Shown: one piece after another, positions 58,408 to 63,212 of the stretch
Layout: each line of letters opens with the position of its first letter
How positions within the stretch are numbered: position 1 is the stretch's first letter
NCBI RefSeq assembly: GCF_018614955.1
Contig: NZ_JAGGNV010000035.1
Coordinates: 1 to 64,000, forward strand
Source of the DNA: Variovorax paradoxus
GTDB taxonomy: Bacteria > Pseudomonadota > Gammaproteobacteria > Burkholderiales > Burkholderiaceae_C
Direction: 5' to 3'
DNA length: 64,000 bases
Notes under the pieces: generated by a model
What the model saw: the letters and a program-made list of their open reading frames with translations, nothing else
Database searches by the model: none
Told to the model about the DNA's origin: nothing
Program-made: the position numbers and the translations under genes

Positions 58408-59489
58408 ATGCCGGTTCGAACTCCGGTCACAGCCGAAGCACTGGTTGCAGCGGACGGCCCGCAGCAGCGCCGCGCCATCGCCAAGGCGATCACGCTGCTC
58501 GAATCCACGCGCCCGGATCACCGCACGCAGGCCGACGAGCTGCTCACGGCGCTGCTGCCGCACACCGGCAAATCGTTCCGGCTCGGCATCTCCGGCGTGC
58601 CGGGCGTCGGCAAGTCGACCTTCATCGAAACGCTGGGCCTCCATCTGATCGGGCAGGGCCATCGCGTCGCGGTGCTCACGATCGACCCTTCGTCCACGGT
58701 CTCGGGCGGCTCGATCCTCGGTGACAAGACGCGCATGGAGAAGCTGTCGGTCCATGAACGCGCCTACATCCGGCCCAGCCCCTCGAGCGGCACGCTGGGC
58801 GGAGTAGCCGAGAAGACGCGCGAGGCGATGCTGGTGTGCGAAGCCGCGGGCTACGACATCGTGATCGTCGAGACTGTGGGTGTCGGCCAGAGCGAAACCG
58901 CGGTCTCGGGCATGACCGACATGTTCGTGCTGCTGCAGCTGCCCAACGCTGGCGACGACTTGCAGGCGATCAAGAAGGGCGTGATGGAGCTGGCCGACCT
59001 GGTCGTCATCAACAAGGCGGACATCGACAAGGATGCGGCGACGCGCGCGCAGGCCCAGATCACTTCCGCGCTGCGGCTCTTCGGCCATCACGGCAATCCG
59101 GCGCACGCGCAGGTCATGCACGCGGCCCATGCGGTGCCCGGATCGCCCGAAGCGGAAGTGCGCTTTTGGCTGCCCAAGGTGATTCAGCTGAGCGCGCTGC
59201 TGGGCACCGGCATCGATGCCTTCTGGGCCGCGGTGCTGCAGTTCAAGGCGCTGCAGACCGCCAACGGCAAGCTTGCCACGCGCCGCGAAAAACAGGCGCT
59301 CGCGTGGATGTGGGAACGCATCGACGCGGAGCTCAAGCAGGCCTTCCGCCACCATCCGCAGGTGCGCGAGCTGCTGCCGGAAGCCCTTGCCCAGGTCGCG
59401 GCCGGCACGCTGCCGGCCTCGACTGCCGCACGCAATCTGCTCGCAGCCCAGGCGGGACGGGCGCAGTTCAACACTTCCGACGGGACGAC

Positions 59490-59493
<4 letters not shown>
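58408..59493 (+). CDS. meaB: Methylmalonyl-CoA mutase-associated GTPase
   Basis: 361 residues. P-loop 63-71 (G-V-P-G-V-G-K-S-T), then [27 protein letters not shown], and N-K-A-D for guanine. MeaB loads and protects the B12 cofactor of the mutase. It starts 2 bases after scpA and overlaps pccB as ATGA, so the supply is linked. Confidence 0.94.
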
Positions 59494-61022
<1,529 letters not shown>

Positions 61023-61040
61023 ACCTGGGAGACAAACAAC

Positions 61041-61158
61041 ATGTTCAAGAAGATCCTGATCGCCAACCGCGGAGAAAACAGCCGCGCAGCGGCTGTTTCG
61101 GCGAAGCCAAATTGCATGCGTGCGCAGCACGCGAAGGCGATTTCTCCGCGAGGTGACT

Positions 61159-61166
<8 letters not shown>
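61041..61166 (+). other. Leader ORF with a duplicated pccA start, 41 codons
   Basis: It starts with 35 bases that repeat the start of pccA with one change (ATGTTCAAGAAG against ATGTTTAAGAAG), encoding the same first 12 residues. It then passes through an 83-base palindromic element and ends in a TAA that overlaps the pccA ATG (61159). GGGAGA lies upstream, so it looks like a translated leader. It is probably what remains of a repeat insertion and may couple pccA to pccB. Confidence 0.6.
61068..61150. repeat. Palindromic element inserted at the pccA start
   Basis: Bounded by a perfect 10-base inverted repeat, CGCGGAGAAA (61068-61077) and TTTCTCCGCG (61141-61150). It has an internal hairpin AACAGCCGC-GCA-GCGGCTGTT, and GTGCGCAGCACG (61120-61131) shared exactly with the repeat at 16801-16850. 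Its right end leads into GAGGTGAC, which is the pccA ribosome-binding site. Confidence 0.65.

Positions 61167-63212
<2,046 letters not shown>

Follow-up and report, generated by a model that had tools for sequence, protein, structure and literature searches.

Why should a metabolic gene begin twice? The window, by which we mean the whole stretch of 64,000 nucleotides of Variovorax paradoxus DNA analyzed here, contains genes for methylmalonyl-CoA mutase, pccB and pccA, and the first 35 bases of pccA occur in two copies spaced by 118 bases. The first copy, ATGTTCAAG...CGCGGAGA, and the second, ATGTTTAAG...CGCGGAGA, are identical at 34 of 35 positions, the sole mismatch being TTC/TTT (Table 1); a 35-base repeat at 97% identity is far above chance expectation. 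The preliminary description of the locus had reported this duplication, a presumed ribosome-binding site before each ATG (GGGAGA and GAGGTGA, respectively), an intervening element with perfect 10-base terminal inverted repeats and an internal hairpin, and a 41-codon reading frame opened by the first copy, all of which are found as claimed. It interpreted the whole as an insertion with target duplication that was later tuned as a translational-coupling leader.

Anatomy and RNA structure of the leader

The inverted repeat (61068-61077 and 61141-61150) is perfect and bounds 83 bases; the internal hairpin, here SL1, is likewise perfect over 10 bp, and the leader TAA lies at +6 to +8 relative to the true pccA ATG. 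Absent from the preliminary description is a further complementarity (16 nt, 94%) between the end of the leader and codons 10-15 of the gene, that is, a 16-bp helix, P3, whose loop holds the pccA ribosome site and the true start codon; the unit also has three hairpins.

Table 1. Features of the leader and its surroundings in the window
Feature	Position	Strand	Basis
pccB stop codon	61020..61022	+	reading frame 58836-61022 ends there; Pfam Carboxyl_trans
GGGAGA, presumed Shine-Dalgarno of leader ORF	61027..61032	+	sequence; function inferred
Leader ORF, 41 codons	61041..61166	+	TAA 61164-61166 overlaps pccA start region; kept in relatives
Copy 1 of pccA start (codons 1-11 plus GA)	61041..61075	+	repeat comparison
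Hairpin SL1 (61076-61085 with 61089-61098)	61076..61098	+	fold, covariation
Hairpin MID (GGC-GAA-GCC)	61100..61108	+	fold, covariation; GGC/GCC, GAC/GTC, AGC/GCT forms in relatives
Unpaired linker AAATTGC, conserved	61109..61115	+	alignments
Hairpin SL2 (61118-61123 with 61127-61132)	61118..61132	+	fold; compensatory changes at 6/6 pairs
5' arm of long-range helix P3 (leader codons 32-37)	61135..61150	+	complementarity, folds, covariation
GAGGTGA, presumed Shine-Dalgarno of pccA	61150..61156	+	sequence; function inferred
Copy 2, true pccA start, ATG 61159-61161	61159..61193	+	sequence, repeat comparison
3' arm of P3, within pccA (codons 10-15)	61186..61201	+	complementarity, folds, covariation
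pccA, propionyl-CoA carboxylase biotin carboxylase subunit, 685 aa	61159..63216	+	reading frame, domain matches

The RNA fold of 61076-61215 has a z-score of -6.2, with none of 200 shuffles as low; SL1, MID and P3 appear together in single-strand folds, and SL2 in a longer stretch (z -6.2 and -4.9). Comparative evidence comes from a structure alignment of 61 sequences, that is, 69 picked at <84% identity less eight dropped because of gaps, truncation or tandem copies. In this alignment 90.6% of the cells of the four helices are paired, compared with 32-43% in slid controls, double changes occur at 20 of 30 pairs, and the covariation score was equalled by none of 500 shuffles, all of these controls taking no account of relatedness among the sequences. 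Double changes are present at every pair scored in SL1 (5/5), MID (3/3) and SL2 (6/6), and at 6 of the 15 main pairs of P3; no double change is seen at the other nine pairs of the P3 main helix, where two pairs are disrupted in 12 and 15 of the 61 sequences.

In P3, Watson-Crick pairing with the arm is kept by the third base of gene codon 11 in 147, of codon 12 in 153 and of codon 13 in 152 of 168 distinct units. Across these units, agreement of the arm with its own gene is 15.3 of 18 positions, as against 13.3 of 18 for the gene of another unit, the latter figure being the control for the positioning of the arm by best match, which favors agreement. Moreover, G-U exceeds A-C by 46 to 12 on the mRNA strand in MID, SL2 and P3 taken together, a wobble balance that fits the mRNA strand; in the poorly aligned SL1 it is reversed (2 versus 11). 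The terminal repeats of the preliminary description correspond to pairing of the arm with copy 1, which we rejected as the main helix since it is weaker than P3 (81.9% paired versus 78.5% in shuffles); as it still lies above all 500 shuffles, it may form as a minor or alternative pairing. A search of Rfam with 60500-61700 returned six matches, all below gathering score, and five relatives gave none. No terminator-like site, such as a transcription attenuator would have, was found on the + strand in 60900-61400.

The leader reading frame and its coding signatures

In 141 of 143 distinct units (the pattern-scan matches listed plus the Variovorax units) the leader stop overlaps or adjoins the main start, within -24 to +11 of the true ATG: it ends at +8 in 114, at +11 in 7 and between -24 and -1 in 20, with none before the gene in the remaining 2. 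The spacing of the copies is 1 modulo 3 in 123 of the 143. An uninterrupted leader frame through the body is likewise found in 123, an observation that by itself says little because the other two frames are open in 108 and 93. In two of the 143 the leader reads in frame into the gene. One of these (L074 = L135, step 117) is a base shorter, and an N-terminally extended enzyme would therefore be made; in the other, from Polaromonas sp. P2-4 (L122), the carboxylase frame ends after 67 codons in the assembly.

Codon usage was compared in a set of 54 units whose selection took no account of their amino acids. Codon 2 is TTT in copy 2 in 50 of the 54 and in copy 1 in 27, and it is TTT at this codon of copy 2 that creates the leader TAA or TGA. 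The contrast is cleanest at pccA, since TTT in copy 1 of mccA may serve the stop of the upstream gene (L065); at Variovorax pccA codon 2 is TTT in all 12 leader loci and TTC in 56 of 58 empty loci. Within the same locus, copy 1 and copy 2 differ with pS 0.49 and pN 0.018 (pN/pS 0.04; 54 units, codon 3 left out), and the amino acid at codon 3 agrees between the copies in 50 of 54. Comparison of species within two other genera gives copy 1 a pS of 0.69, with pN 0.051 and 0.117 (pN/pS 0.07 and 0.17), the second of these groups, of 12, taking in one accC locus. In the tail, pS and pN are equal and low at Variovorax mccA (0.108 and 0.116); the corresponding pS/pN values are 0.032/0.036 in one of the other genera and 0.172/0.098 in the other, and at Variovorax pccA 0.429/0.394 for step 118 and 0.043/0.072 for step 115. 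On these comparisons, the constraint on copy 1 looks like that on a peptide and the constraint on the tail, for the most part, like that on an RNA; repeated replacement of copy 1 by native starts could also produce its low pN. A PDB search with the leader peptide returned three chance-level matches only (E 1.7).

Distribution and history of the doubled start

A leader with a repeated start precedes three paralogous genes, accC, pccA and mccA. When 101 Variovorax genomes were searched at the DNA level with copy 1, body and copy 2, the unit was located at pccA and at another gene, which we take to be mccA (liuD), a biotin carboxylase gene following enoyl-CoA hydratase-like and membrane-protein-like reading frames. 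A covariance model of the body alone (R2, built from 44 sequences) gave 35 strong matches (E <= 6e-11) in 26 of the 101 genomes, the window's own included, and then, after a gap, five weak ones. All 35 coincide with doubled starts from the DNA search (31 distinct units inspected). Two of the weak matches, along with one BLAST match, are a diverged accC version, and the other three (G039:C7, G064:C45, G083:C1:5543730) lack a doubled start and were dismissed as unrelated. The accC version as query aligned at full length in 10 of the 101 genomes, of which three were inspected.

At the level of the order, 25 strong matches (E <= 1.3e-9) were found in 22 of 349 genomes, again including the window's own; each lies at a biotin carboxylase start, with copy 1 clear in 24 and decayed in one (L221), and two weak matches (L229, L233) were discarded for want of a doubled start. 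Among 369 genomes of the class, searched with stricter filters, the window's own alone matched at 1e-6. Named genomes were scanned with a pattern that requires amino acid conservation in both copies, and at least 119 loci with a doubled start were detected, among them the pccA locus of V. boronicumulans Xaverov 112 (L154); the 80 records named among the matches listed are mostly betaproteobacteria with a few Oceanospirillales, and the 119 matches listed comprise, by the sequence after the start, 40 accC, 24 following pccB, 26 mccA and 29 unsorted. Leader-like predicted proteins number 264 at E<=1e-3. Plasmid records matching the query number 88, none with one place covering 80% of it; in the ten among the matches listed, two query pieces fall on the same 55-59 bases, i.e., a single carboxylase start, and plasmid carriage of the unit was rejected on these matches.

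The preliminary description had proposed a search for genomes without the element at the exact site, and such genomes are plentiful: of 89 Variovorax pccA loci, 58 are plainly empty, 12 have the leader, and 19 have another, longer or unmeasured gap. On a tree of these 89 pccA genes from the 101 genomes (G099, in which no start was found, and 11 others were left out), it takes 11 changes to explain the 12 leader loci, a number no lower than that for shuffled labels (mean 11.5). The leader is dispensable, given that alleles with and without it are intermingled in closely related genomes, and the abundance of empty sites implies frequent gain, loss or exchange. Between the two copies 33 of 96 codons are different, and the nearest empty relative departs from copy 1 at 23 and from copy 2 at 29. 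Divergence between the copies thus usually equals or exceeds that from the nearest empty relative, and the duplication is for the most part not a recent event; most duplications being no younger than the split from the empty relative, the scatter of the leader should mainly reflect loss or allele transfer. The window is one of two exceptions among the 12 loci, with 0 of 8 codons differing between the copies. Across 166 distinct units, 34, the window among them, have copies with at most one synonymous difference and the remainder have diverged, so that some units are young or homogenized.

Codons 18-20 read ATT CAA ACG in four of the 12 leader pccA loci (G010, G027, G039, G061) and in three of these four cases the triplet of codons is absent from the nearest empty relative, which suggests allele transfer. 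In four genomes (L046, L066, L209, L226) the start occurs three times in tandem, with two consecutive leader units (step 118 or 121), an arrangement that fits recombination between repeats. In the genus g84 (L222, L330-L332) two synonymous start types are mixed between copies 1 and 2 across species, as if by conversion.

Two further ideas about the copies were abandoned. Hypervariability linked to the element is not borne out, as the 58 empty loci are equally high (pS 0.481 at codons 2-11). The notion of copy 2 as a foreign, element-borne start likewise fails, identity to empty relatives at codons 3-10 being 203/288 for copy 2 and 214/288 for copy 1. In the empty loci synonymous divergence peaks in the first 20 codons (0.48-0.49) and is 0.17-0.43 beyond.

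A probable coupled leader and its alternatives

From the observed anatomy, covariation, coding signatures and distribution we infer that the leader is translated, that ribosomes re-initiate after it and that P3 represses the pccA start; the resulting proposal, that translation of this structured leader opens P3 and passes ribosomes on to the start of the carboxylase gene, we regard as rather probable. A ribosome would initiate at the first ATG, make a peptide with the same first 11 residues as the enzyme, pass SL1, MID and SL2, unwind the 5' arm of P3, which lies within leader codons 32-37 and would be opened by their translation, terminate on the true start and re-initiate there. When the leader is not translated, P3 would close around the true start and the enzyme would be made poorly. 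Production of the enzyme thus probably depends in the main on prior translation of the leader, and, with the enzyme slaved in this way, whatever acts on the leader would set enzyme output, candidates being a protein, ligand or small RNA on the hairpins or linker, or a factor on the nascent N-terminus. The coupling part of the earlier reading is backed by the stop on the start, the frame-keeping indels and the conserved fold; as a counterpoint, the two Shine-Dalgarno sites could act independently. Ribosome bypassing from copy 1 to copy 2 was considered and rejected, because copy 2 has its own ATG and ribosome site and the leader frame is kept to its stop; two glycine codons also differ in several of the 12 loci.

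The insertion part of the earlier reading has fared less well. A small mobile element targeting biotin carboxylase starts, with a 35-base target duplication and tolerated since the start is recreated, structure and coupling being secondary, would account for the patchy presence with clean empty sites, the three paralogous loci in one genus, the tandem triples, and the excess of near-identical copies over the ~2-3 expected for random pairs. Nevertheless, we consider it unlikely: strong matches to the body are confined to biotin carboxylase starts (35/35 in the genus, 25/25 in the order), with none elsewhere in the 101 Variovorax and 349 order genomes, about half of the synonymous sites differ between copies on average, no transposase was seen adjoining the unit, and the P3 arm covaries with the local gene. 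The genome-wide count of element copies that had been proposed, carried out on the window's genome (G000), gave one copy, the next best match having E 0.08; a transposable element or MITE would have copies at unrelated sites. On this evidence a fresh transposon insertion with target duplication finds little support. Allelic transfer of the ATT CAA ACG type and the apparently mixed starts of one genus would equally suit a non-regulatory conserved cassette spread by homologous recombination between carboxylase genes, with P3 matched by template switching between inverted repeats. Such a cassette seems improbable in view of the excess of G-U over A-C outside SL1, the stop-making TTT codon, and a tail that diverges much less than synonymous sites do in mccA and pccA step 115 of Variovorax and in the two other genera, although not in pccA step 118.

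The three covarying hairpins, the conserved linker (AAAYYGC) and the equal conservation of the Variovorax mccA tail at all codon positions are what a ligand-binding riboswitch or protein-binding RNA with an incidental ORF would display; yet both frame and stop are maintained, the amino acids of copy 1 are conserved, and Rfam has no match at gathering score, and we regard this reading as quite improbable. A more specific version of peptide-based control, to which we attach little likelihood, is that the leader provides a decoy N-terminus at which a factor recognizing nascent biotin carboxylase, perhaps the enzyme itself or its partner subunit, would decide on re-initiation, which would amount to autoregulation across three paralogous carboxylases. 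About 30-35 residues fit inside the ribosome exit tunnel, so that at the stop the repeated residues would be just outside it. A possible model for the copied residues is the autoregulation of tubulin by TTC5, in which, in the accessible part of the source, the nascent polypeptide is the regulatory signal. In that system the signal is the N-terminus of tubulin. The TTC5 system differs in that, as far as the accessible text goes, it is eukaryotic and acts on the gene itself through mRNA decay, and we know of no TTC5-like factor for the carboxylase leader.

Coupled leader ORFs as such are already known. According to the accessible portion of its description, CsrA acts on the E. coli iraD leader via a short upstream ORF by translational coupling, and the likeness extends to a stop overlapping the main start and RNA structure over the main ribosome-binding site; unlike the carboxylase leader, the iraD ORF is not described in that portion as a copy of the gene's start or as shared by paralogues (PMC5574718). 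A 2013 survey, in the part available, includes a GeneTack cluster, 697472870 'Biotin carboxylase', with 128 genes from 44 genera and a +1 frame transition, in which stop and ATG lie within 10 nt in 75% and which is classed as translational coupling (PMC3711429, Table 2). This cluster may be the same leader as the one analyzed here; in that part of the survey it is a table row, in which the repeated start, RNA structure and distribution are not described. The bacterial uORF motifs (odc1, ilvB, fthC and the uORFC series) resemble the leader in that a conserved upstream ORF and a structured RNA occur together ahead of a metabolic gene, but none with an ORF repeating the gene's N-terminus was found in the accessible parts of the two reports, and 'biotin' and 'carboxylase' have 0 occurrences in their main texts (PMC8632094, PMC11109978). 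A paper on a Bordetella repeat has, in its accessible part, no bearing on carboxylases. In the open-access literature searched we found no description of the repeated start or leader structure, nor of the layout in which an upstream ORF copies the start of the protein encoded downstream. Biotin carboxylases serve fatty acid synthesis (accC) and the breakdown of propionate (pccA) and leucine (mccA), and if a shared RNA-plus-peptide leader acts on all three, biotin enzymes would be under common translational control. The natural presence and absence of the leader among close relatives supplies ready-made test pairs.

Several other arrangements occur in the pccB-pccA gap of Variovorax. One pccA locus without the leader (L030, genome G029) has GCGCGAGGTAACCAATGTTTAAG before the gene, which resembles the tail of a lost unit. 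Six genomes (L027, L028, L029, L032, L038, L039) have a different hairpin-rich repeat, with CGCACTTCGTGTCGC and CCCGGCAAAGCCGG, in this gap, and in G034 that repeat stands before a leader unit. In approximately 14 genomes (G001, G014, G060 and others; L051-L053, L280-L293) the gap is several hundred bases longer, the two longer gaps measured being 686 and 721 (G065 and G082).
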